Source: a virus
DNA: 47,686 nt
IMG/VR virus record: IMGVR_UViG_3300007537_000001
Location: 1 to 47,686 of that record
Direction: 5' to 3' (one strand)
Shown in pieces: positions 4,569 to 46,294 of this stretch. Every line of letters begins with the position of its first letter. The stretch's first letter is position 1. Under the pieces are notes generated by a model. That model did not search any database and was not told where the DNA came from. It saw only the letters and a list, made by a program, of their open reading frames with translations. The position numbers and the translations under genes were made by a program.

Positions 4569-4898
4569 ATGTTAAATTTTGAACCAAAACCAACAACAAG
4601 TACAGCTCCATTGACTGTGGAACTAGGTACTGCAATCTATAATCTTATAAAACAAGAGGGGACAGCACTAAAAGCTATACAAGCTTCTATATATGACCCT
4701 GAAAATATATTAAGAATAGAAAAAGAAGTAGAAAGAATTGTAAAACTTATAGACAAAAAAGAGGTAGTAACTCCTGCTGAATTAGACGAACAAGGGAATG
4801 TAGTAACAGAGGAAGTGAAAGACTATGTAGAGCTTACAAGCGACATTATAGATGTTGATGTAGTGCTAGCAGATTTCCCTAGAACTGTAGAAGAATAA
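4569..4898 (+). CDS. Small acidic helical protein
   Basis: 109 residues, Glu/Lys/Ile-rich and probably alpha-helical through the middle (E-K-E-V-E-R-I-V-K-L-I-D-K-K). It contains no TGA; its three glycines are GGT or GGG. It sits 24 bases before the first TGA-free LamG gene. No function can be assigned; it could be a linker or chaperone of the adhesion proteins. Confidence 0.7.
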   Translation: MLNFEPKPTTSTAPLTVELGTAIYNLIKQEGTALKAIQASIYDPENILRIEKEVERIVKLIDKKEVVTPAELDEQGNVVTEEVKDYVELTSDIIDVDVVLADFPRTVEE

Positions 4899-4922
4899 TT
4901 TACTTATAACCCATAAAAAATT

Positions 4923-6536
4923 ATGGAAAAAATAATAACTAAACCACAAGCAATATTTCGTGAGGACTTTCGTAGTAGAGCGAATGTTATCCGTAACGGT
5001 GGAACACCTAACAATGTAACCTTTGAGGATGGCAAGGCTGTTTTTGATGATACCATAGGTAATAATATTAACTATGGTTGTTATAAATATTTAGCTACCA
5101 AAGGAAAATTCAGTATTAGAGCAAGGTTCAAGTTTACCACTCTTAACCAAGGTAATGTCGTTCGTATTGATAATTTCGGTATAATAAGAGTTATTGATGG
5201 TAAGATATTCACTTGGGGTCAAGGTATTAGTAGTAGTTTTTCAACTGGTGGTACTTACAATGATGGTCAATATAAAGATGTTATAGTCACTGTTGATGTA
5301 GATTATGGTGTTAGAATTTTCGTTGATGGTGAGTTTGTTAAGGAAAATCTTGGTACTGGAGATTTAACTATTATAGATGGTCTTTTATATGTAGGCTCTT
5401 TAAGTACTGGTAGTGAACCTTTTGATGGAACTATTGATTTCGTTGAAATCTACAACCGCACTCTATCCGCTGAAGAGGTTTCTCTTCTTAATAGTGGTTC
5501 TTACTCTCAAGGTTTGAGTTCTAGTGTTAAGGAGCAGCTTGGTGATGAGTTAGTTGTTAATGGTACTTTCGATACTGATAGTGATTGGACTGTAGGGTCT
5601 AATTGGTCTATCGAGAATGGTAAGGCTGTCGCTTCTGGCGTTTCCGGTGATGCTATAAAACAATCCATTAATACAAGTTTGGGAATAAAATATCGTATTA
5701 CTGTTGATGTTACTATTGAAAGTGGTAGCATTAGCGGTTATCTTGGTTCTAATGGCGGTATCGACCGTTTCATGGATATAAGTTCATCAGGTTCTTATCA
5801 ATTTGAACATAATATATCTGTTAATAATAACCAGATTTTCATTTATGGGTTTGATGGGTTTGTAGGTAGTGTTGATAATATATCAGTAAAAGAAGTTTTT
5901 AACACTGATACTACTACACTCCTCGACTACCAAAGTATTAATGGAGTTATTGAGGATAAGAGTGGGTTGAATACACTAACACCTACTGATGTTTCAGTTA
6001 AAAAGAACGGTGCTTTATGGAGTGGAGAGTTTAACGGTTCATCTAGTAAGATTGATTGTGGCTCTGACTTTATTGGAACAAAAGCAATCACTATTATGGG
6101 TTGGATTAATCCTTATAGTTTTGGTGAAAATAATTTTGGTTCTATAATCCATAATTGTGCTTATAATGGGGATAGTTTGAAGATTAGGATGTACGATGAT
6201 AATAAAATGCAATTAACTTCTGATAGTGTTTCTTATGCACTATCTGGTAATGACAGTATAGAAATTAATAAATTGAAGTTTATAAGTATTACTCGTGATG
6301 AAAGTGGTGTAGTTAATTTCTATTTCGGTGATAAGGAGAACGCTCCTGAATTAACAGGAGATGCTAACCAAGATAGTGGAACACCTACTGCTGGTGAAGA
6401 AAATGTTATTATAGGTAACGATACAACAATTATAAGAACCTTCGACGGTCAAATACCTATACTCACAGTCAAGGAAGGAATTTTATCACTAGAACAGATA
6501 ACCCAAGAACGAAGCAATACAAGGTGGAAAGTATAA
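4923..6536 (+). CDS. LamG-domain adhesion protein, TGA-free
   Basis: 537 residues with two LamG-like jelly-rolls (about 30-195 and 350-520) around a domain at about 205-320 that begins ELVVNGTFDTDSDW, as carbohydrate-binding modules of the CBM4/9 kind do. Repeated signatures include D-G-T-I-D-F-V-E-I-Y-N-R-T-L-S and W-S-G-E-F-N-G-S-S. Despite dozens of glycines it has no TGA codon: glycine is mainly GGT, arginine is often CGT, and GAC, AAC and GTC are commoner than in neighbouring genes. This codon use resembles a standard-code gene and suggests recent import. Likely role: glycan-binding tail adhesin. Confidence 0.85.
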   Translation: MEKIITKPQAIFREDFRSRANVIRNGGTPNNVTFEDGKAVFDDTIGNNINYGCYKYLATKGKFSIRARFKFTTLNQGNVVRIDNFGIIRVIDGKIFTWGQGISSSFSTGGTYNDGQYKDVIVTVDVDYGVRIFVDGEFVKENLGTGDLTIIDGLLYVGSLSTGSEPFDGTIDFVEIYNRTLSAEEVSLLNSGSYSQGLSSSVKEQLGDELVVNGTFDTDSDWTVGSNWSIENGKAVASGVSGDAIKQSINTSLGIKYRITVDVTIESGSISGYLGSNGGIDRFMDISSSGSYQFEHNISVNNNQIFIYGFDGFVGSVDNISVKEVFNTDTTTLLDYQSINGVIEDKSGLNTLTPTDVSVKKNGALWSGEFNGSSSKIDCGSDFIGTKAITIMGWINPYSFGENNFGSIIHNCAYNGDSLKIRMYDDNKMQLTSDSVSYALSGNDSIEINKLKFISITRDESGVVNFYFGDKENAPELTGDANQDSGTPTAGEENVIIGNDTTIIRTFDGQIPILTVKEGILSLEQITQERSNTRWKV

Positions 6537-6557
6537 TTTATTTATAAATACATATAG

Positions 6558-8663
6558 ATGAAAAAAATATTCAGTTTCAATAACAAAAGAAACGGCTCCT
6601 ACATCGACTCAATGAGCGGTGTGCAAGGCGTTAACACTAACGGTGAATTCAAACAAACTATTAAAGGATTGGCTTATAAATTAGATACTTCAACATCGTT
6701 ATCTTTCACCGTTGATAGTTTTGATGCTGTTAATCTTATAACAATGGCTGGTGGTAACGGTACATTAAGAGTTGCTATTGGTTCTACAAACACAGATATT
6801 GTTCTTACTGGATGGTCTTTCGATAAAACTATTCTATCATTAACAGATGAAACTACTGTTACATTTTCTTGTACTTCAGGGACTGTTTACTTATCACGTT
6901 GTCTTATTTTTGATGAGAGTATTTCTACAGATGAAGAAAATGATTTAGAAAAACAATTCCTTAGAGCAAGTCCTATCACTCGTGGTAACGCAGGGACTAA
7001 GTATGCTAATCCTGCTAGTATGATTACTAACCTTGAGCGTGAGAAAGAAGCTTATTTAAAAGATATTACTTATAACGATTTTAAAAACAGTGATAGCTTT
7101 CCATATACAACATTTACAGGAGACGGTACTAACGGGTTTAGTGTTTCAAGTGAGGTTAGTGATATTTACATTGCTGGACTTGAAAATCTTAACCTTGTCG
7201 AGGGTGAGAAATATCATGTCACTTATAACGCTAGTTTAAACTGTTGTGAACCTCCAATCGCTAGATTTCAGGACGGTGTCGCTGGTAATTTTGCAAGTGA
7301 TAACGATGATTACCATTCTGTAGAAGGGTTTAACGATGTCACTTATACAATAACAAACACTACATATGCGGATGGTGTCTTTAGTTTTTTACATATTAAT
7401 GATACAGCTGATTATACAATAACAGACTTTACCTTACAAAAACTAACAGGTCTAGTCGCTGCTTATAATTTCAACAAGGACACAGTGAAGACTAACAAGG
7501 TGCTTGATATTTCTGGTAATCAGAATGACGCTACTTACGTTGGTAATCCGTTACTTACAATGGATGGTTTGAAGTTTGACGGTGTTGATGACGAAGTTGT
7601 TGTTAGTGATGACAGTTCTCTTGATTTCGGTACTGGTAGCTTCTCATTATTAATGAGAGGTTGTTTCACAAAAAATACTGCTACACAAGGTTTATTAAAT
7701 AAGAAACCTGATGATAGTGATGGTGTTGGTTGGCAGTTAGTAAAGTCATTTGGTAGTTCAGGATTTTTCAGAATTGCAGATGGCACTAACGAAGTGAATA
7801 CTTTCTTTGGTGATTTATCTAATCCTGTTGCAACTGATATTGCTGTTGTTGTTAATCGTGATACTGACGAAGCGTATTTTTATCAGGATGGTGAGTTAGT
7901 AGAAACTCTTGATATTAGTTCTATTACTGGTTCAGTATCTAATGCTAATGACTTATATTTGATGAGTAGGCGTGGTGTTAGTAATTATGCAGAAGGTGCT
8001 TTATTAGACGTTAGAACTTTAAACAGACCACTCTCAGAACAAGAGGTTAAAGACTACCACAACAGTTTCGTACAAACAGTTGTTAGTGAGAAGTTTGAGG
8101 ACGACGCTGTTGGAGAGACTGACCCTATTGGTCGGCTTAAAGGTACTGGTAGTTATGAGGTTAAAGAAAAAACTGATGGGACTAAATACCTTGAATGTAC
8201 AAGTGCAGGGACTAAGCCTTTCCAAAGCGACACTGCTTACGGTGAGTGGGAGTTTTATGCGTATGTTAATGCTGGAAGTCCTTCTATCACAATATTAAGT
8301 GATAGAAATGCTGCGTATCAACAATCTAATTCATATAATTTATACCTGTTTAATGGTGATGACATTAGGTTATATCGTTCTACTGTTGGTGGTAATGTAT
8401 TATTATTCAGAACAGCCCCTTCGTATATTTCAACCAACACGTGGTATAAAATCAAAACAACCCGTACCACTGACGGAGAGTTTACAGTTTATATCAAAGG
8501 AGGAGACTTTGGAGACACTTATCAGTTAGTAGACGTTACTGAAGGTTCAGGAACTAATCCTGTGACTGATACTACTTACACAGAGAGTAAATTCTTCGTA
8601 GTTGATAACGATGTTGGAGATTCTATAGCAAATATCAACATAAAAAATTGAGTAAGAAAATAG
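6558..8663 (+). CDS. LamG-domain adhesion protein with one terminal TGA
   Basis: 701 residues under code 25. A LamG-like domain lies at about 300-480, beginning L-V-A-A-Y-N-F-N-K-D and containing L-K-F-D-G-V-D-D-E and D-V-R-T-L-N-R-P-L-S. A second beta domain follows at about 500-690. Glycine is almost always GGT or GGA. The only in-frame TGA is at 8649-8651, after which just three sense codons remain before TAG. The TGA looks like the original standard-code stop, now read as glycine, giving a four-residue extension. Probably paired with the preceding gene as a tail adhesin of foreign origin. Confidence 0.85.
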
Positions 8664-15202: not shown

Positions 15203-15230
15203 CTTATAAGGATTTCTTTTCTAAAATCAA
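15203..15230 (-). promoter_or_regulatory. House promoter for the recombination genes
   Basis: On the minus strand TTGATT (15230-15225) and TATAAG (15208-15203) are separated by 16 bases. A 28-base stretch covering the promoter (15204-15231) is repeated exactly at about 25271-25298, in front of the replication genes. Transcription would start about 25 bases upstream of the SSB-tailed gene. Confidence 0.7.
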
Positions 15231-17438: not shown

Positions 17439-17503
17439 GAGGAGGGAGGATAACACCCCTACAAGCTTAACCCTATTTCTAGTTACATAACGACTCCTCC
17501 ATA
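17439..17503 (-). tRNA. Degenerate tRNA-like element
   Basis: The ends GGAGGAG and CTCCTCC pair perfectly over 7 bp, and the length is close to a tRNA. The internal sequence has GTTATG-N2-ACTAG and GGGTTAAG in common with the tRNA-like RNA at 17152-17238, but the T loop (about TGTTAT) departs from the consensus. Either a decayed tRNA or a tRNA-like RNA with another purpose. Confidence 0.3.
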
Positions 17504-17536
17504 TAAAGCCTCGTATAGTGAGGCTAGGCTTTCTTT
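17504..17536. repeat. tRNA-flanking hairpin repeat, copy 1
   Basis: CCATATAAAGCCTCG, a 5-base loop, then GTGAGGCTAGGCTTT. A near-identical copy follows the other tRNA at 18422-18455. AGCCTC pairs with GAGGCT and a T-run follows on the plus strand. On the minus strand the hairpin lies just upstream of the tRNA 5' end, so it may be a terminator for upstream transcription or a processing signal. Confidence 0.6.
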
Positions 17537-17570
17537 ATTTTATCCATCTCTATAGTATATAATATAAAAT

Positions 17571-18240: not shown

Positions 18241-18291
18241 ATCTGTTATATTATAGTAGTAAAATCTATTTAAGTTACTTAGTTTTATTTG

Positions 18292-18422
18292 GGAGAGAGG
18301 AAGGAATCGAACCTCCGACACACTATGATGACTAGTCATTAGTCTTGCATAGCCCTAACAGTCATTAGTATTCTGCTATCTCCCCGCAATGGCAGGGGCT
18401 CTACCAACTGAGCTACTCTCTC
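18292..18422 (-). tRNA. Oversized (131 nt) tRNA gene, possibly interrupted
   Basis: The 5' half is canonical: acceptor GAGAGAG, spacer TA, D arm GCTC-AGTTGGTA-GAGC. The 3' half is also canonical: T arm GGAGG-TTCGATT-CCTTC followed by CTCTCTC, which pairs fully with the acceptor, and a discriminator C. Between them are about 80 bases instead of about 25. They start with CCCC-TGCCATTGC-GGGG and contain a direct repeat ACTAATGACT and a hairpin built on ATGACTAGTCAT. Either a short intron in the anticodon arm, a very long variable arm, or a fusion of two tRNAs. GCC (Gly) is the only anticodon that fits the first loop, and weakly. Confidence 0.6.
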
Positions 18423-18455
18423 CATATAAAGCCTCGTTAAGTGAGGCTAGGCTTT
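18423..18455. repeat. tRNA-flanking hairpin repeat, copy 2
   Basis: CCATATAAAGCCTCG, loop TTAA, GTGAGGCTAGGCTTTTT. It matches copy 1 at 17504-17536 except for the loop, and again lies directly upstream of a tRNA 5' end on the minus strand. The stem differs from copy 1 only in unpaired positions, which supports a conserved RNA or terminator role. Confidence 0.6.
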
Positions 18456-18517
18456 TTATATATTTTAGTTATCTTAACTTCTTTAGTAGAGGGAGCTTAT
18501 ACACCCCCTCTATAGTT

Positions 18518-24168: not shown

Positions 24169-24854
24169 TTAGGTTTTCTGTTAGTGTCTAAAAACTTACT
24201 AACTCAATTTTTATGTCATTTTACCTTTATTCATTTTCATTCAACCCAATCTTTCCATTTATTAAAACACGTCAACATACTCATCCAATCAATTTCTCAT
24301 CACGGTAATAAATGCTCATACAATTTCGCTTTATTTTTCATCCATTGTATTAATTTATATATATTATCCGCTTTTTTTTCTATATTATATCAAAGTTCTA
24401 TCATTATTCGTACACATTTAATAGCATTCTTATTATTCTGTATATATTGAATATCTAATATTTCTTCTATGTCTTTTTTATTCTCTATATATATATTCTT
24501 TAGTAGTGGTGGTTCGTCGGTGCTTTGGCTGGTGGTTTTTTTTATGTCTGATTGATATTTGTCATATTCTAACACGGTTATAAGAGAATGTTCGTTGGTT
24601 GGTTTGCTGGCGATTTCTTTAGTTGATTTTAATTTGTCCAGTGATGATCTGACTTGATATTCTGACAATCATGTTTCTTGCGATAGTTTATATCTTCACG
24701 TAATTAATTGTCATCTTTTTATATTTTTTCATCTCCAATTCTTATCTTTCCAATTTGCTTTCAATAAAAGATGTAAGAATAAAATTTTAGTATTTATGTC
24801 ATCATACCATTCCCATTCAAGGAATTTATTATGTAGCTTTATTCGTCCTTCCAT
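24150..24854 (-). CDS. Replication initiator-like protein (winged-helix)
   Basis: 234 residues. The N-terminal 110 residues (F-L-E-W-E-W-Y-D-D, L-F-L-H-L-L-L-K-A-N-W, R-G-Q-L-I-T-G, S-Q-E-T-G-L-S-E-Y-Q-V-R) match the winged-helix domain of phage replisome organiser/initiator proteins that precede a helicase gene. The middle is a polar linker, and the C-terminal part is Trp/Lys-rich (F-N-K-W-K-D-W-V-E-G) and may load the helicase. It is coupled to the primase-helicase gene. Confidence 0.75.
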
Positions 24855-25271: not shown

Positions 25272-25299
25272 CTTATAAGGATTTCTTTTCTAAAATCAA
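25272..25299 (-). promoter_or_regulatory. House promoter of the pseudoknot RNA and replication operon
   Basis: Minus strand TTGATT (25299-25294), 16-base spacer, TATAAG (25277-25272). The element is an exact 28-base duplicate of the promoter at 15203-15230. The predicted start near 25264 gives a short leader, then the pseudoknot. Confidence 0.75.
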
Positions 25300-25305
25300 C
25301 CCTTT

Positions 25306-25839
25306 TTATCAATAAATCTTTCTTCCATCATCATCCATTCATTTGTATTGTCTTCTTCTAGGGCTTATTGCTGTTTCAAAGTCTTCTCATTTTCTTATTC
25401 TAACCATCATAGCAGAGTATGTTATCTTATCTCATTTATAATCCTCTCGCTTTCTTTTTAATCAAGTACCTTTATTATGTCATCATAATCAATTGTATGG
25501 CTCTCTTAATATCTTTTCATCATCCCATCATGCATTTATTCTATATATTATTGTTGTATATGTTATAGAATTTTCTCAATGTCTTTTGATATACTCATCA
25601 AACAATCATTTAGCATATCAACGCTTTCTATTTGTTTTTTCACATAGTATTACATTTTTTACTGGCATATCTGGATCATAGTTCAGTTTAGAAGATATAG
25701 AATTAATATGTAAAGCATTGTCTCATGCGTATTCTTTATGTTTTTTATAAATATGTCTTCTTCTATATCATTCTTTCTTTAGTTCGTTGTATGATTTGTT
25801 TAAGTCTAATCACTCAAGTGTATATTTTTTTGTAGCCAT
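25306..25839 (-). CDS. Basic protein with two intron-endonuclease-type HTH repeats
   Basis: 177 residues, Arg/Lys-rich. Two similar units, T-I-I-Y-R-I-N-A-G-W-D-D-E-K-I-L-R-E-P and A-M-M-V-R-I-R-K-G-E-D-F-E-T-A-I-S-P, match the DNA-reading helix-turn-helix repeats found in homing endonucleases and phage DNA-binding proteins. A possible third unit is degenerate. No nuclease motif is seen. It lies between the two RNA elements at 25185 and 25934 and could regulate them, which is inference. Confidence 0.65.
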
Positions 25840-25899: not shown

Positions 25900-25927
25900 T
25901 TGATTTTTGTATTGATTTAGTTATAAT
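25900..25927 (+). promoter_or_regulatory. House promoter pointing into the plus-strand RNA
   Basis: TTGATT (25900-25905), 16-base spacer, TATAAT (25922-25927). It is on the plus strand inside the minus-strand gene arm and has no coding sequence downstream, only the structured region ending at a terminator near 26276. Confidence 0.7.
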
Positions 25928-25933
25928 TCCATT

Positions 25934-26276
25934 AATGCTTAAGTTTCCACTGGGCAAACAAGGCAGGACCGACAGGAGTCGATATACGAAAACAAGGTAT
26001 ATCTCAATAGGGAAGTACAACCTATTGTCGAGGAAATAACAATCAGTTATAAAGTATTGAACAAATGACTTTTACAATTTTGTAATACGTCATAAACAAA
26101 TAACAAAAGTTCTTTACTTATTATATAACTGGGAGTTATAACCTCTAGTAGTCTCAACCGAAAACATAATATATCTATATAAAGAGTATGTGTATATATA
26201 TTCTTTAGATAGACATATAACTGTATGTTATTAATCCCAGTAAAAAAGATCTCGCCTCGTGTGGGATTTTTTTTAT
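25934..26276 (+). ncRNA. Candidate structured non-coding RNA, about 340 nt
   Basis: No plausible frame exists on the plus strand. Visible pairings: an outer stem ACTGGG (near 25951) with CCCAGT (near 26236), CGAC-AGGA-GTCG, GATATAC-N9-GTATATC, AATAGG-N9-CCTATT, TTACAA-TT-TTGTAA within a TGAC/GTCA stem, and ATAACT-GGG-AGTTAT. It ends at a hairpin (GATC...GAT) in an A-run/T-run that works as a terminator in both directions. With the promoter at 25900 this makes a complete RNA gene. It resembles no RNA family that I recognise; tmRNA, RNase P and group I intron cores were looked for and not seen. Confidence 0.6.
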
Positions 26277-26521
26277 ATTGCCAATTCTTTTGAATACTCT
26301 TTAACAAACTCCTTGTTTGCTTCCATAAAATGGTTGGTAGCTTCAAAGTCTCTTTTGCATTTACAATCTCCTTTAAATCGTTTTCTACTATAAAACTCTG
26401 CTTTCTTTCAAGTGTTGTAATGTGAGACAGGACGTAAATAACCCATCACACGAGTGTAGACCTGGCATCTCTGTCTTTCTACTTCTTTTCATTCTTTGTT
26501 GATAAATTTTTTCTCTTCCAT
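26273..26521 (-). CDS. Stand-alone NrdD C-terminal (glycyl-radical-like) domain
   Basis: 82 residues. C-Q-V-Y-T-R-V-M-G-Y-L-R-P-V-S-H-Y-N and T-G-K-K-A-E-F-Y-S-R-K match the C-terminal end of anaerobic ribonucleotide reductase, where R-V-x-G-Y carries the radical glycine, and a C-K-C pair follows. The rest of NrdD is absent from the window. Small proteins of this kind occur in other genomes; a radical-domain replacement, as YfiD does for pyruvate formate-lyase, is a reasonable guess. The putative radical glycine is GGT, while two other glycines are TGA. Confidence 0.7.
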
Positions 26522-26611
26522 GGTTATATAATTCAGGGGATAAAAAAAGAGTAGTAGCAATCTACTCGATGATTGCCTGCATTATATATATATACCATCA
26601 AATTTCAACTT

Positions 26612-29162: not shown

Positions 29163-29190
29163 ATTATAATCAGAAAAAGACAAAAATCAA
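29163..29190 (-). promoter_or_regulatory. Promoter of the leftward early arm, in the divergent region 29034-29433
   Basis: Minus strand TTGATT (29190-29185), 16-base spacer, TATAAT (29168-29163). The 400-base gap between the two arms also holds TTGACT (29212-29217) with an inverted AGTCAA (29237-29242), a possible operator or rightward -35, and a long A-rich run to the small terminase gene. No frame is seen in the gap. Confidence 0.7.
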
Positions 29191-30742: not shown

Positions 30743-30770
30743 TTGATTTTTGAAAAAATATCCTTATAAC
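30743..30770 (+). promoter_or_regulatory. House promoter before the CAP protein and terminase genes
   Basis: TTGATT (30743-30748), 16-base spacer ending ATCCT, TATAAC (30765-30770). It shares the ATCCTTATAA core with the minus-strand promoters. The predicted start is about 25 bases before the CAP-domain gene. Confidence 0.7.
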
Positions 30771-33760: not shown

Positions 33761-33788
33761 TTGATTTTGTCGTAAAAATAGTTATAAT
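33761..33788 (+). promoter_or_regulatory. House promoter of the head operon
   Basis: TTGATT (33761-33766), 16-base spacer, TATAAT (33783-33788), directly behind the terminator. The leader to the portal gene holds the small hairpin TGGTA-TAAAC-TACCA (33809-33823). Confidence 0.75.
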
Positions 33789-36386: not shown

Positions 36387-36971
36387 ATGGTTATTGAAAA
36401 AGAAACTTTAGAAAAGCTATCTTCAATTAGTGAAGATAACGTTGAAAATCTTGATGTGAATGCAATTAAAGAACTTGCGAAAGGCTATCAAGAAAAAGAA
36501 AGCCAAGCACAGGGTCTTACAAGTGCTTTACAAAAAGACAGAGAAGAACTTAAAATTGTTAAAAAACAATTAGAGGCTTTATCTAAAGAACAGAAACCAG
36601 AAAGTGGTGGTTCTGAAGAAGAAAAACAAGCTAACAAGAAAAATCAAGAAACTCATGAGGAGTTAGTTAAAAGACTTCTGAAAGAACAAAAAGAGGCAGA
36701 AGAAAAAGCTGCCAAACAAAAAGCAGATGAAGAGTTTTTTGCAAACAATCCTAGGCTTAATAAAGAAGAGGTTATGGATATTGTAAACAAACACAACTTT
36801 ACTGCAAAAGAGGCTGTAGAATTTTTAGCTGCTAAAGATGGTGTAAATGTATCTACTATGATATGAGCACCAGAGGAAGCACCAAAAAAAGATGAAGCTC
36901 TTGAAAGAGCTGCAAACATTGCTGGTATTTCTATTGAAGAAGCTAAAAAACTAAGAAAGCCTAGAAACTAA
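36387..36971 (+). CDS. Scaffolding protein (putative)
   Basis: 194 residues, almost all charged helix (A-L-Q-K-D-R-E-E-L-K-I-V-K-K-Q-L-E, E-E-K-A-A-K-Q-K-A-D) with a basic C-terminus A-K-K-L-R-K-P-R-N. Composition, size and position between portal and capsid genes fit a scaffolding protein. Only one TGA glycine is used (36864-36866). Confidence 0.75.
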
Positions 36972-36996
36972 TTTTATTTTATTTTTATCTTATCTG

Positions 36997-37767
36997 ATGA
37001 AAGCTTTAAAATCAAAACACGGTGTAAGAACATACTCTCTTGAGAAAGATTCTTCTACTGTTATTCCTGCTGATAGTTTTGTTACTCTCAGTTCTGGGCT
37101 TGCTGTTGTTGCTGTTGCAGCATCTAGTGCTCTAGGATATACAAGAGGAGGTGCTGGTGAAGGAGAAACTGAAGTTCTTATCGACGCAGATGTAGATGTA
37201 GTATACGAAGGTACTGGAGATGCTGTTTTTGCAAAAACACAAAGAGGTACTGAAGTTGACCTAGTAATCGAACCTGCTTATTTAGAAACTGGAGTTGTTA
37301 CTGAAACTGACGCTGATGTATGGGAACTAATCACAGACGGTTCATTTAGAATCTCTATTGATGGAACTGCATACAATGTAGATGGAATAGACTTTGACAC
37401 TGATGCTGATATGGATGATGTTGCTGCTTCAATCCAAACTGCATTACAATCTGCTACTTCTGGTTCAGAAACTGTAACTTGGGACTCAACAAACTCTAAA
37501 TTCGTAATTAGCTCTGTATCTGCTACTGCTTCTAGTGAAATAAGTGTATTAAGCACTTCTACTGGAACTGTTGGTACTGATATTAGTGGTTCTGACTACC
37601 TAAATGGTAGAAATGGATCTGGTACTGTATTTAATTATGAACAAAAAGTTGATGTTGGTGCATCTTCTACAGATGTATTCAAAATTCAACCTACTAACGA
37701 CGCTGGAACTGTTGGTTCTGCTGATGGAATTAGATTCCAAATCAACAAACCACTTTTCGCTAACTAA
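36997..37767 (+). CDS. Capsid-associated structural protein, TGA-free
   Basis: 256 residues. The first 60 residues (V-I-P-A-D-S-F-V-T-L-S-S-G-L-A-V-V-A) look like a head-decoration protein start. The rest is a Thr/Ser/Asp-rich beta domain with repeats resembling flagellin-type or Ig-like sheets (G-T-A-Y-N-V-D-G-I-D-F-D-T-D-A-D-M). It uses no TGA although glycine is frequent, probably because it is made in large amounts. It directly precedes the capsid gene. Confidence 0.7.
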   Translation: MKALKSKHGVRTYSLEKDSSTVIPADSFVTLSSGLAVVAVAASSALGYTRGGAGEGETEVLIDADVDVVYEGTGDAVFAKTQRGTEVDLVIEPAYLETGVVTETDADVWELITDGSFRISIDGTAYNVDGIDFDTDADMDDVAASIQTALQSATSGSETVTWDSTNSKFVISSVSATASSEISVLSTSTGTVGTDISGSDYLNGRNGSGTVFNYEQKVDVGASSTDVFKIQPTNDAGTVGSADGIRFQINKPLFAN

Positions 37768-39893: not shown

Positions 39894-41387
39894 ATGCAAC
39901 GAAATAGACGATATGGCTGAATGAGTGATACAAACACCTTCGTTGGTGATGCTCAATACGTATATTCAGAAAACATAGAAGTAAGAAAAAACCCAGAATA
40001 TTTAAGACTATCAAATAAGAGTAAGAACCGAATAACTACTGATTACAATGTAGTTAATATGCTAACCTTCACAGACCGAAGAGGTATTTTTCTATTTTGA
40101 GAATGATGACAAGTAAGCGATTTGTGAGTTCCTCTATATACTTTATCTTGATGAGAGGAAATATTAGATGCTATTGCGTTTAATGATTACTATTTGTTAT
40201 TTTACGTAAGAAGTAATAGGATAAGGATGGCTAGTATTGATATTGGCTCTGCTAATGCTTGAAACTGGACAGGTAATGTAACAGAAGATATACAAGACTG
40301 AACTGGTACGGTTATAGAATATGATATATGATATAATTCAAGCAATCAAAGAAAAATCTGACTACAGAATAGAGCAAACCAAATATTATATATAGCATCA
40401 TGAAAATCTACACATAGATTGTTTGTTAGTTCTGGTTGAGATCGAGTTAGTGAAGCTCTAATAGAAAATATAGATAATGATTTCGTATGAATAACACAAC
40501 ATGGAAATTACTTCCACTTATATTTAAATAATTGAAGAAAATATTTATGGGATTGACAATGATGAGAAACTAAACAGTTAGCACTGTTAAATACAGAATT
40601 AAACATTACCAATGTAATAGAAACGCCGACTGTTGATTATATAGTTTGAGATAACGCAAGTCAGGATACAACATTATATTATTCTGCTTGATTGGATATG
40701 TTTAAGAAGGTAAAAAAAACTATTAAAATAGCAGAACCTGAAGAGAAGTATAAATTTCTAATTGAATCATGAAGCATAAGTAATCATTTTGCCAAATACT
40801 ATGATGATATAACATATTTTACTGGTAAATGCTGAGATGATGCAGATACTTGAGCTTTAATATCTATATGACAAGAATATGATTGATTTCAGACATCAGT
40901 AGTTAATAGTATTACAGGTTGTGATTGATGAAATGGAACAATCAGTGCAATAAACTGTATAACTACATTTGGTAGTTGATTCTTATATTATGCTTGGGAA
41001 TGAGATTTGTGATGAGAAAGCTATTGAGTTGATTACATATATTTATGAGAATGAAAACAATCTAGCCAAGAATACCAAAAACAATGAGAATTATGGTCTA
41101 AAAGAGAGAATTACTGAAATAATGCTCTAACTAAGAAGATAATCAACTCTTACATAAGAGCAGATGTAGATACATCAAACTATATTAATGTATACTACTC
41201 TATAGATTGAGGTAGCCGAACCTTATGGAAAAGACTAGATGATAGTACTAAAAAAAGACATAAACTATTAGACTTAAACAAGAAATTCTATGAAATACAG
41301 ATAAAACTTGAATTTGTAGGAACATGAACATCAACACCTAAACTATATCAATTTAATTTATTACCACAAGTGATAAATGAGCCTTAG
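39894..41387 (+). CDS. Tail nozzle-like protein (putative)
   Basis: 497 residues, very rich in TGA glycine and beta-prone sequence (M-S-D-T-N-T-F-V-G-D-A-Q near the start, repeated Y-I-V-G-D-N, L-Y-Y-S-A-G, F-H-L-Y-L-N-N-G-R-K-Y-L-W-D-G). The N-terminal layout and repeats suggest a beta-propeller, as in the gp12-type nozzle of short-tailed phages. Overlaps the next gene by 11 bases. Assignment is by position and fold impression. Confidence 0.55.
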
Positions 41388-41751
41388 AGATAATATAGAT
41401 AAGATAAATGAAGATTTCAAAGTTGATGTTGATAAAATGAATAAAGACTTTGAGAAAGATTTTTTATCTTTAGATGGTACTGAGGTAGATATATCAAAAA
41501 ATGTAGAGGTTGATGAAGATAAAAAAGAATATGGGTATTCTAAACAAGCATTAGACCCTTATATAGCACTTGATAGAGATAAATTAGAAGAGTTTATTGA
41601 AGATTATTTAGAGGGAAACTCATATATGAGATATAGAGGTACATCATTACCTACATCAGACATAAGAGAATGAGATACATACACAACAGGTACAGGTACA
41701 TTATTCATTTATAACTGAACAAGTTGGGTAAAAGTAGAAGAAAATCCTTAA
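41377..41751 (+). CDS. Hypothetical tail protein
   Basis: 124 residues. Charged helical N-terminal 60 (D-K-I-N-E-D-F-K-V-D-V-D-K-M-N-K), then a short Gly/Thr/Tyr-rich C-terminus (Y-T-T-G-T-G-T-L-F-I-Y-N-G-T-S-W-V-K-V-E). The C-terminal motif is common on phage virion proteins as a small beta cap. Translationally coupled to the nozzle-like gene. Confidence 0.6.
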
Positions 41752-41773
41752 TTTATTTTAAAAACAATAAAAT

Positions 41774-44344
41774 ATGGTATCAAAAGCTAGACAACAGGAA
41801 ATAGCTGCAAACATACAAGAAGCTGTAGACTCTTGAAGAATATCTCAAGAAGATGTTGCACAAGCTAAAGCAGATTTATGATTTGAGGGTAAAACTACTC
41901 AAGATGTTCAGCAAACCCAAACAACACCTCAACAACCTAGTCAATGAAAACCTCAACAAGAACAATCTCAACAACAAAGAGATACTTGATTAGACCCTGT
42001 TGAAGATATAACTGTAAGACAACCAGAGATACAACCTAAGGAATGAGAAAGAGTAGAATGAAAGGTGCAAGATAGAGTAGAACCTATGCAACTAGAAGAA
42101 TGAGAAACAACTCAATTCTGACAAGCTGTTAAACAGATGTGACCTGACGCAAAACAATTTATGAATAGAAGAAATCAAGCGCTTGCAGATGAAACGCTTA
42201 ATTCTTTGATGCCTAAAATAAATTCTGGACAAATAGATTTAACAGAAGAATCTTTAATATCCTCTATTACTAATACTATCACAAGACGTGGTGGTGAAGT
42301 TGTAAATATAAAAGACCGACAAGATACAATAAACGATATTAGAGATAGAATGTGATTTAGTGTTGGTACTGACTTAGATAAAATAAATCAAGAAACAAAA
42401 TATGATAGATATAATGCTAATGTTTCATGAGAGAGAGCTGGATGACCTGAAGAAATATCTACATTAAAACAGAAAGTTACAGACTATCTTGAACAAGAAG
42501 GTATAGATTACGACGAAGCTAAATCTCAGATAGATATAGATGCAAGATATGAAGAGATAATCAATAATCCTGACTATAAGAATGCTAACTCAATGATGAA
42601 TGAGAGTAAAAAGGTTGTTGACGACTTAGAGGAACAGAAATTTAATCTATTATGAGAGATAGACGAAGCTTTTCCTTGAGAGCCTTCTTTTGTGATAGAC
42701 GCAGTATATTCCGATAGACTTGAAGATATTAATAAACAACTAAGAACAGCCACTATTACACATAACAAAAATGTTGCTAATTACCAATTTCAAGAAAAAC
42801 TAGCACAACAAAAGTTATCAAACTATATACAAGAATATCAAATAAACCAAGACCAGTTATGGAAAACAATTTCACAAGAAACTGGTATTGCAAAAGCAGA
42901 CCGAAACCAAGATTGGACAAATTTCTATAAACAACAAGATAGAGAAGACCAGAAAGAATTACAACAACTATCTTTGTTAAGTCAATTAAATCTTAAAGGT
43001 ATGAGCGATAGTAATATAGATTGATTAGATACAACAAGTTTTGTTAAAGATATATTGAAATTTAAAAGTCAAGTAGATTCTAAACAGAAAGAACAAACAA
43101 ATATGTATTACGATGAAAACTCAAAGAATATGGTCTTCTACGATAATTATGGAAACGTTATAAATACATATAGTCCACAATGATGATGAACTACTACATC
43201 AGAATGAACCTCAATGTGGGTTAGTCCAGAGAATATACCAGAATGATGACTAAGAACAGATAGACACAGAAATCCAACAGCCTTGATGTATACAGAATGA
43301 GTTGCCAAATTCTTTAAAAACAAGTGATATAACGTATCTAAATGAGATAAATTTCCAGATAGTAACAACTATACTTTAGATATGAGTAATATAGATGACC
43401 CTGTACAGGCTACTATAGATTATATAGACGCATATTGATTTGATTATAAAGGACAAAACAGACGAACACATACATCAATGTCAGACGAATCTCGAAACAA
43501 CTTAAATAATCAACAAAAGAGATGAGTAATTAAAAAGATGTATTCAAGAGAATTAGGTAGTTGAGAATTGTTCTGAGAAAATTATATTGCATGAGCACAA
43601 AGAAGTAACTCTTATAATAAAAACCTTTCAACAACATATAGAGAGTTTATTGTTAATGGTAAATCCCCTTCTGTTGCTGTATTAAAATCAGACTTTGGAT
43701 GAAGTGCAGAGGAATTATGAAGACAAGCAAATAATTGGTTTAAAGATAATATATGAGAAGTATTAGGTGGTTCTAATGTTAATATGAAGAACCCTCAATT
43801 ATTTACTTTTTGGACTAAAGAACAAAGAGATTGATCTATTGAATGAATGAAGACAATTAACAAAACATTATGATGAATAGAACAGGTTGTTGATTATATA
43901 GAAAATAACTTTGAAGATTGAAAAATTATGTATGATTGATGAAGAAGTAAACTTAAAACATTAAGAGGTAAGATTACGAATTTACAATTATGAGTAAAAG
44001 ATAAATGACTATATAACTTATGAGTATTAAACTGACCTGACCTTGAGCTAATAGAGTCAGTAATACCAAATGTAAATTTCTTTAACCCAATCCCAATTGA
44101 TAACGATAATTACATAACAAAAGAAGAAATGATTGAGAGGATGAAAGAAACTGCAAAAACTTTTGTTGAATGATATGATGATGAAAATATATTATACTGA
44201 ATAAATGTTACAAACCCGTTCGCATTAGATGATACACAAGGTGGTAATGTAGTATGACAAAGTAATCCTCAAATAAATGAAGAAGAGATATTGAAAGAAA
44301 CATTAAATAGTACATCATATAGTGGGGCAATAGAATGATTCTAA
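41774..44344 (+). CDS. Large internal virion protein with possible wall-degrading domain
   Basis: 856 residues. The first 130 are Gln/Pro-rich and disordered-looking (Q-T-T-P-Q-Q-P-S-Q-G-K-P-Q-Q-E-Q). Helical segments follow. At about 480-560, R-N-P-T-A-L-M-Y-T-E-G-V-A, G-D-K-F-P-D, D-P-V-Q-A-T-I-D-Y-I-D and G-F-D-Y-K-G resemble a lysozyme/transglycosylase-like module of phage ejection proteins; that match is tentative. TGA is the main glycine codon. It may be ejected to open the host wall during DNA entry. Confidence 0.6.
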
Positions 44345-44374
44345 TATTAATAATTTAATTATATATATATAAAT

Positions 44375-46294
44375 ATGGCACTAAATACTTGATTACAGAA
44401 CACTTGATTACAGAATACCTGACTACAGGGTATATGATTAAATAATACTTGAACAAATACTCCAACACAACAAAATAATCAAAAAGATTGAATGAGGAAC
44501 GCTTGAACATCTTCATTTAACAAAAAATCAACACCAATTAAGTACATAACATTAGAAGATTTCTACAAAAAAGCAAAGCCACTAACAGAGAAATACAACA
44601 AATCTTATACACAAATAATGAAAGACGTTGAGGATTCTTGAACAATGGTTATTGGTTCTGAAGTATTTAAACAAAAGATAACAAAAACAAATGTAGAAAA
44701 AACAGAAAGTCAACCATGACAATGATTACAAAACTTCATGGACTCAGGTGTTTGAAAATTTGGAACAGAATTAGGAAATATATTTAAAAACGCAGTTGCA
44801 TCAGCGCCAACAACCGTAACAAATACTGCCGCATTTCTTCAGGAGATAAATCCATTAAGACTTGTAGATAAGGCTGTTGACGCAATATTGCCATGAGATC
44901 AACCAGACTATTTAAAAGAACAAGCAGATGATTTAAGAAATCTATGAGAAAATGCTAAAGTTGAGATACAAGATTTTTTAGATGCTGATAAAGAATGACG
45001 AAGTGCAACTGTATGAGCATTTATACCTGAAGTAGTTGCTTTTTTCGCTTGATGAGAAGCTGTTCAATGAGCTAAATTTGTTAAAGCATTAAATAATTCA
45101 ATTCGTTGAACTAAAATACTATCAAAGACACCTAGATTGGCAAAGTTTTTATGAGCTTTATCTAATGTAACATTAAGATGAGCTTGATGAGCAGAGGCAG
45201 GTAGTATTGTGTGAGAATGAAGAACAGCAACACCATGAGAGCTTGCATTATGAGTTTGAGCAGAAGTTGGTATTGGAGCTGTATCTACTTTAATAGGTAA
45301 ACCATTAAAATCATTATTTGCAAAGAAAATTCCTAAACAAGCTAAAACAGCATTTAAAAGATTAGGAATAAAAAAATATGATGATTTAGTCAACGCATGA
45401 GAGAAATCATCTTTAGATAGAACAACAACAACACCAGCAGAGCTTGTTGCAAAAAATATAGAAGATTCGTTCGATAAAGCTCAGAAAGAGTTATTATGAG
45501 AATGAAAGAAACTTTGAGACATAAGAAAATGATTTACAGATATAGTTGCTTGAAACGAAATAAATTGAAATAGATTTGCAGACGAATTTGCTGATACAAT
45601 AGAAGATAGATTATGAGCCAGAATAATTGACTGAGATAAGCTTGATATAGTAGACGCACCCAATAGAACAAACCAAATATTTAAGGAGGCAGATGAAAGG
45701 CTTATTAAGAAGATATATAAAAAGGTTAATAGTCTTTGACCTAATACAAAGTTAAGTGAATTAGATGATATAGCACAACTTTTCTGAAAAATGGAAGATA
45801 AATCAACTAAATGAGCATTTGCTAAATTAAAGAAAGACATTCTAAATAGGGTTGATGAATTATGAGGAAAAGAATTTAAACAAGCTAAATCACAATATAA
45901 AGAACTAATGGATTTCTTAGATGAATCAACAGAATGAAAAAAATCAATACAACTACAAAAAGAGTTCTTTAGTAGTAATCCTACAAGATCTAAAAAGATT
46001 TTTGAGGATATTGAAAAGATTACTTGAATAGATCTAGTCCCAGAGATGGAAGCAGCTAGGTTTGTTATGGATTCATTGCAAGATCCTCAGTTTTCTAAGT
46101 TCTATCCTTCTGCACCTGGAATTAAAGAAAAAATTATAGAATCATTACAATCAAACTTAGATAAACCAATTAAAAGATGAAGAAAATTTGTTGAATGATA
46201 TGAACCAGATAGAAAAATATTCTTAGAATGATTAAAATCATTAAAGTCTACTTTAATAGGTCAGGCGTCAACTTTAAATGATAACCAAGACTAA
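44375..46294 (+). CDS. Large virion protein with hydrophobic centre
   Basis: 639 residues. The start is a repeat of N-T-G-L-Q (four imperfect copies in residues 4-25). The centre (about 195-310) is Ala/Gly-rich and apolar (T-V-G-A-F-I-P-E-V-V-A-F-F-A-G-G, G-A-E-V-G-I-G-A-V-S-T-L-I-G), then a long helical C-terminus. A helical protein with a membrane-active centre next to the internal protein suggests an ejection protein that forms a channel in the host membrane. Family not recognised. Confidence 0.6.

Follow-up and report, generated by a model that had tools for sequence, protein, structure and literature searches.

Which product, if any, does a phage make from an intergenic segment that carries a promoter and a terminator on one strand and lies among genes transcribed from the other? 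This question is raised by positions 25900-26276 of IMG/VR record IMGVR_UViG_3300007537_000001, the whole of which (47,686 nucleotides) is the window analyzed here. The original prediction had described this segment as an undescribed plus-strand structured RNA that may represent a new phage RNA class.

Phage genome and genetic code

Both ends of the 47,686-base viral record carry the same 123 bases, from which the phage genome is taken to be complete. Counting TGA as a sense codon raises the open-frame coverage from 0.33 to 0.84. In an alignment of the terminase with six standard-code homologues, glycine occupies 82 of the 121 aligned residues in TGA columns, and TGG columns contain mostly tryptophan. 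The phage therefore uses genetic code 25 (TGA = Gly), which is the code of Gracilibacteria, Absconditabacteria, and many of their phages (PMC10746230). The use of in-frame TGA is uneven among genes, with 0-1 in some large plus-strand genes (4569-8663 and 36387-37767) versus 38-47 in others (39894-46294). The minus-strand arm of the genome encodes a primase-helicase and a DnaD-like helicase loader.

A predicted plus-strand transcription unit and its neighbours

The layout of the locus is as follows.

25306-25839, minus strand: 177-aa protein, divergent from the RNA (phrog_3377, E 6.6e-5)
25900-25927, plus strand: promoter, with the -35 element TTGATT at 25900-25905, a 16-nt spacer, and the -10 element TATAAT at 25922-25927
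25934-26275, plus strand: predicted non-coding RNA of ~340 nt, its ends set by the promoter and the terminator
26241-26275, plus strand: intrinsic terminator with a U8 tail
26276-26524, minus strand: 82-83-aa NrdD-like protein, convergent with the RNA (PF13597, E 1e-7)

Both flanking genes lie on the minus strand, in agreement with the claim that the unit runs against its neighbours. The weak match of the 177-aa protein falls in the C-terminal part of an HNH-endonuclease family and likely reflects DNA-binding repeats. The match of the free-standing 82-83-aa protein to PF13597 is confined to profile positions 532-562 of 562; the matched part, RVMGYLRPVSHYN, covers 31 positions at the very end of the profile and corresponds to the glycyl-radical end of anaerobic ribonucleotide reductase, and one viral relative of this ORF was detected (L014, 56% identical).

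The promoter was present exactly as predicted (TTGATT-N16-TATAAT). A bare sigma-70-like match is weak evidence because the DNA is AT-rich, and 21 such matches were found in the genome versus 18.5 in shuffled sequences, that is, without enrichment. Two 10-of-12 sigma-70 matches elsewhere, however, have hexamers identical to those of the promoter at 25900 and share a longer motif with it. This extended motif, TTGATTTT-N13-TTATAA, occurs in six exact copies in the genome versus 0.01 expected:

15204-15230, minus strand: exact copy
25273-25299, minus strand: exact copy
25900-25926, plus strand: exact copy, driving the structured-RNA unit
29164-29190, minus strand: exact copy
30743-30769, plus strand: exact copy
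33761-33787, plus strand: exact copy

Each of the five other copies is followed by an ORF on the same strand. Such an excess strongly suggests that TTGATTTT-N13-TTATAA defines a promoter family of the phage to which the promoter of the RNA belongs, and this membership is the strongest evidence for plus-strand transcription at 25900-26276. The motif should also serve as a handle for locating other transcription units in this genome. Several copies of the family have a T-rich stretch upstream (AAAAAGTTTTTTTGAT..ATCCC). A different sequence, ATAGTATATAATATAAAATCTATTT, is found in three minus-strand copies (17552, 17784, and 17978) just upstream of the starts of small minus-strand ORFs, and is perhaps another promoter type.

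The start of the RNA was placed at ~25934, 7 nt past the -10 box, and its end in the T-run of the terminator. The predicted closing terminator was recovered at -13.5 kcal/mol on the plus strand and at -3.6 kcal/mol on the minus strand; its strength is limited to the plus strand because of its G-U pairs. No plus-strand gene lies beyond it, the next gene (26276-26524) being convergent. A leader or riboswitch was therefore rejected, and the product of the transcription unit should be the RNA itself.

Coding potential

A stretch of ~340 bases without a reading frame had been claimed, and six-frame codon scoring bore this out: all six frames of the region gave -0.16 to -0.43 bits per codon, compared with +0.42 (sd 0.17) in the genes of the phage, and no credible frame under code 25 was found at 25900-26276. 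The closest approach to a gene is an ATG one base past the inferred start followed by 33 more sense codons, from which it could be argued that the unit serves as a short mRNA whose leaderless frame encodes a basic peptide of 34 residues (25935-26039) and whose folded 3' region confers stability. The codon score of this frame is -0.30 versus +0.42 bits per codon in phage genes, it lacks a ribosome-binding site, and such short frames are often expected where TGA is no stop, all of which makes the peptide very improbable. In contrast, we are highly confident that a real plus-strand non-coding RNA is encoded at 25934-26275.

Predicted fold of the RNA

The segment 25930-26276 has a minimum free energy of -91.8 kcal/mol, compared with -58.7 (sd 4.8) for shuffled sequences (z -6.87), and none of 100 shuffles folded as well. 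When both strands of the genome were scanned in 310-nt tiles (306 in all), the three lowest z values (-7.0, -6.2, and -6.1) all fell on this RNA, followed by -4.25 for the next tile. The helices predicted with high pair probability, all on the plus strand, are listed below.

25949-25954 with 26236-26241: outer closing stem P1, ACUGGG on the 5' strand and CCCAGU on the 3' strand (mean pair probability 0.95)
25957-25966 with 26221-26229: closing stems AACA/UGUU and GCAG/CUGU (0.84 and 0.92)
25981-26003: hairpin A, 7 bp (GAUAUAC/GUAUAUC) with the 9-nt loop GAAAACAAG (0.99)
26005-26027: hairpin B, 7 bp (CAAUAGG/CCUAUUG) with the 9-nt loop GAAGUACAA (0.99)
26030-26145: long irregular arm C, 116 nt, from GAGG to CCUC (each helix at least 0.93)
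26169-26218: arm E, a long AU-rich hairpin of 4+5+12 bp (0.85-0.98)

The outer stem that had been proposed to join the two ends is thus found as P1. Hairpins A and B are consecutive and have a common design with unrelated stem letters, and arm C is built of the helices GAGG/CCUC, AUAAC/GUUAU, UCAGUUAUA/UAUAACUGG, AAGUA/UACUU, GAAC/GUUC, AUGAC/GUCAU, and UUACA/UGUAA. Pair probability is above 0.9 in nearly all arm helices. Taken together, a closed multi-branched structure is predicted, consisting of an end-joining stem, two matched hairpins, an irregular arm, and an AU-rich arm.

The complementary strand of the region also folds well (z -5.8), as expected of any DNA rich in inverted repeats. 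Fold energy alone therefore does not settle the strand, and the plus strand was assigned because of the promoter and the strand-specific terminator. The folding of the minus strand, which precedes the minus-strand gene 25306-25839, could also be taken to mean that the fold belongs to the replication operon as a minus-strand leader or spacer, with the plus-strand unit being accidental. Such an accident would have to account for a plus-strand promoter that reproduces the phage motif exactly and for a terminator that fails on the minus strand (-3.6 versus -13.5 kcal/mol), and no comparable minus-strand promoter is present between 26272 and 25839; little probability is thus left to a minus-strand leader.

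The folding of both strands, as well as the position in an intergenic gap ~1-2 kb from the genes for the DnaD-like loader and the primase-helicase, is also what a replication-origin DNA element or primer transcript might show. Iteron-like direct repeats are, however, absent from the segment; the repeats within 24.9-30.8 kb cluster at 28.7-29.1 kb, and the minimum of the cumulative GC skew, which also tracks gene strand, lies at ~28-29 kb rather than 26 kb. Because both signals are 2-3 kb away, and an origin has no need of a strand-specific terminator, we regard this explanation as distinctly unlikely.

Search for known families and relatives

The absence of a known family, as claimed in the original prediction, holds for Rfam 15: no family was found in the region at gathering thresholds, and a search with E up to 10 gave only unrelated low-scoring chance matches. 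Across the whole genome, the sole sequence to pass the gathering threshold was a tRNA outside the region.

Homologues of the RNA, for which a search had been proposed as well, were found neither with patterns in IMG/VR, nor in phage and plasmid records, nor in host-class genomes. Two exact DNA patterns from the 5' domain gave six chance matches in GC-rich or repetitive IMG/VR contigs and then none, and blastn against phage and plasmid records returned chance matches of 30-35 nt or nothing. The host-class set comprised 353 code-25 genomes, all from the class to which a Gracilibacteria MAG belongs; this MAG was found through an EF-Tu-type TGA pattern. A DNA search of these 353 genomes with the RNA gave two matches, both short and AT-rich, which were attributed to chance, and a single-sequence covariance model of 25965-26147, which recovers its own genome at E 5e-52, had no match among them.

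Near relatives of the phage itself were sought with the primase-helicase, the NrdD-like ORF, the terminase, and an alignment of the terminase. The sole close match, at 99.99% identity, was the same phage assembled a second time, on a contig that begins beyond the RNA, and the remaining relatives were distant and nearly all used the standard code. Searches with the primase-helicase, the NrdD-like ORF, and the terminase revealed no TGA-recoded near relative. In the host-class genomes, the primase-helicase had no match at E 1e-20, and the terminase had one recoded relative (47% identical) on an 8.4-kb contig that does not include the replication region. Because these collections are almost devoid of near relatives of this phage, the missing homologues say little about how widely the RNA is spread.

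Several observations were also made in the tRNA region. A tRNA with a CAU anticodon (18291-18422, minus strand; Rfam tRNA score 40 bits) appears to be interrupted by 60 nt at the intron position of the anticodon loop, as detected by ARAGORN with introns allowed. A self-splicing intron would need more space than this insert offers, and a search of 341 host-class genomes returned only short generic arm matches. In addition, a 45-nt minus-strand hairpin (AAAGCCTAGCCTCAC..GAGGCTTTATATGGAG) is present in two copies that are 89% identical: the copy at 18420-18464 precedes the tRNA at 18422, and that at 17497-17541 stands before a degenerate stretch that resembles a tRNA and is closed by GGAGGAG/CTCCTCC.

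Identity and possible mode of action

The locus fits the general kind of a stand-alone structured phage RNA because its own promoter, a same-strand terminator, a fold beyond chance, and non-coding character are all found, and its identification as an undescribed RNA of this kind is well supported. Thus, the fold, promoter, terminator, coding, and Rfam analyses uphold two parts of the original prediction, namely a plus-strand structured RNA and the lack of a known family. The new class, in contrast, is not shown: a class needs a second member, none was found, and the RNA is therefore best called a new orphan of a known general kind. That it is the founding member of a new class of RNAs in code-25 phages (those of Gracilibacteria or Absconditabacteria), ornate and assembling with protein or with itself during infection, is a tentative suggestion that we think rather doubtful.

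With regard to mechanism, one explanation is a plus-strand regulatory RNA that pairs in antisense with phage or host mRNAs. A promoter followed by a terminator is the typical layout of trans-acting sRNAs, and 16 nt of the RNA (26193-26208) equal the plus strand at 24488-24503 and are thus complementary to the DnaD-like helicase-loader mRNA; a match of 16 nt or longer occurred in 5 of 500 shuffled RNAs. This stretch (TATATATATTCTTTAG), however, is of low complexity, its target lies in the middle of a coding region, and it is buried in a 12-bp stem with a pair probability of 0.98. It was also the single long match in a comparison of the RNA with phage mRNA, in which loops and exposed strands had no long complementarity. 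Moreover, the closed multi-armed fold of ~340 nt is unlike typical sRNAs with exposed seeds, and antisense action is considered unlikely.

We slightly favor the reading as a whole that this is a stand-alone plus-strand phage RNA of ~340 nt with a closed multi-armed fold, acting in trans by being bound. According to this model, the RNA would be transcribed on the plus strand from the phage's own promoter and stopped by the strand-specific intrinsic terminator, probably during infection, and its sealed ends would make it stable. It may then be bound in trans, serving a phage or host protein as scaffold or decoy, or alternatively form part of an RNA-protein or RNA-only particle, and it would act neither by base-pairing with targets nor by control of a downstream gene. 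The trans-binding step is drawn entirely from elimination and from analogy in principle with 6S, CsrB, GOLLD, and ROOL, and the chance that the RNA works through protein binding or assembly may be put at about even.

Comparison with known structured RNAs

Several other RNAs fall in the same size range or have closed ends, such as introns, RNase P RNA, and tmRNA. Introns and RNase P RNA were rejected because no Rfam match was obtained at E up to 10, and tmRNA because none was found by ARAGORN or, at the same E, by Rfam. A CRISPR or retron RNA was dropped as improbable, since no such gene was seen among the proteins examined.

Like 6S RNA, the RNA described here appears to be an independent structured RNA with paired ends that may act by binding protein. 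6S RNA consists of one long hairpin (~180 nt) interrupted by a central bubble, whereas this RNA is multi-branched, ~340 nt long, and without a match to 6S models. CsrB and CsrC are similar to it in length. They also resemble it in their many hairpins, and one possible hairpin here presents GGA (CGAC-AGGA-GUCG); however, there are only five GGA motifs in 318 nt, rather than the many of CsrB and CsrC, and no Rfam match was obtained.

The nearest comparison in phages is with GOLLD and ROOL, the best-known stand-alone structured phage RNAs, which are large, ornate RNAs of phages and prophages without known function; GOLLD is often longer than 800 nt, the ROOL studied has 659 nt, and both are usually located near tRNA islands (PMC12286853). 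As in GOLLD and ROOL, the RNA is phage-encoded, stand-alone, non-coding, and highly structured, although it is only ~340 nt long and has no covariance-model match to either family. Phages seldom encode large structured RNAs, and what such RNAs do is an open question even in the case of GOLLD and ROOL (PMC12286853). An RNA that is compact, well bounded, and equipped with its own promoter and terminator would offer a tractable new example and would extend the range of structured phage RNAs to the poorly sampled, recoded bacteria of the candidate phyla.
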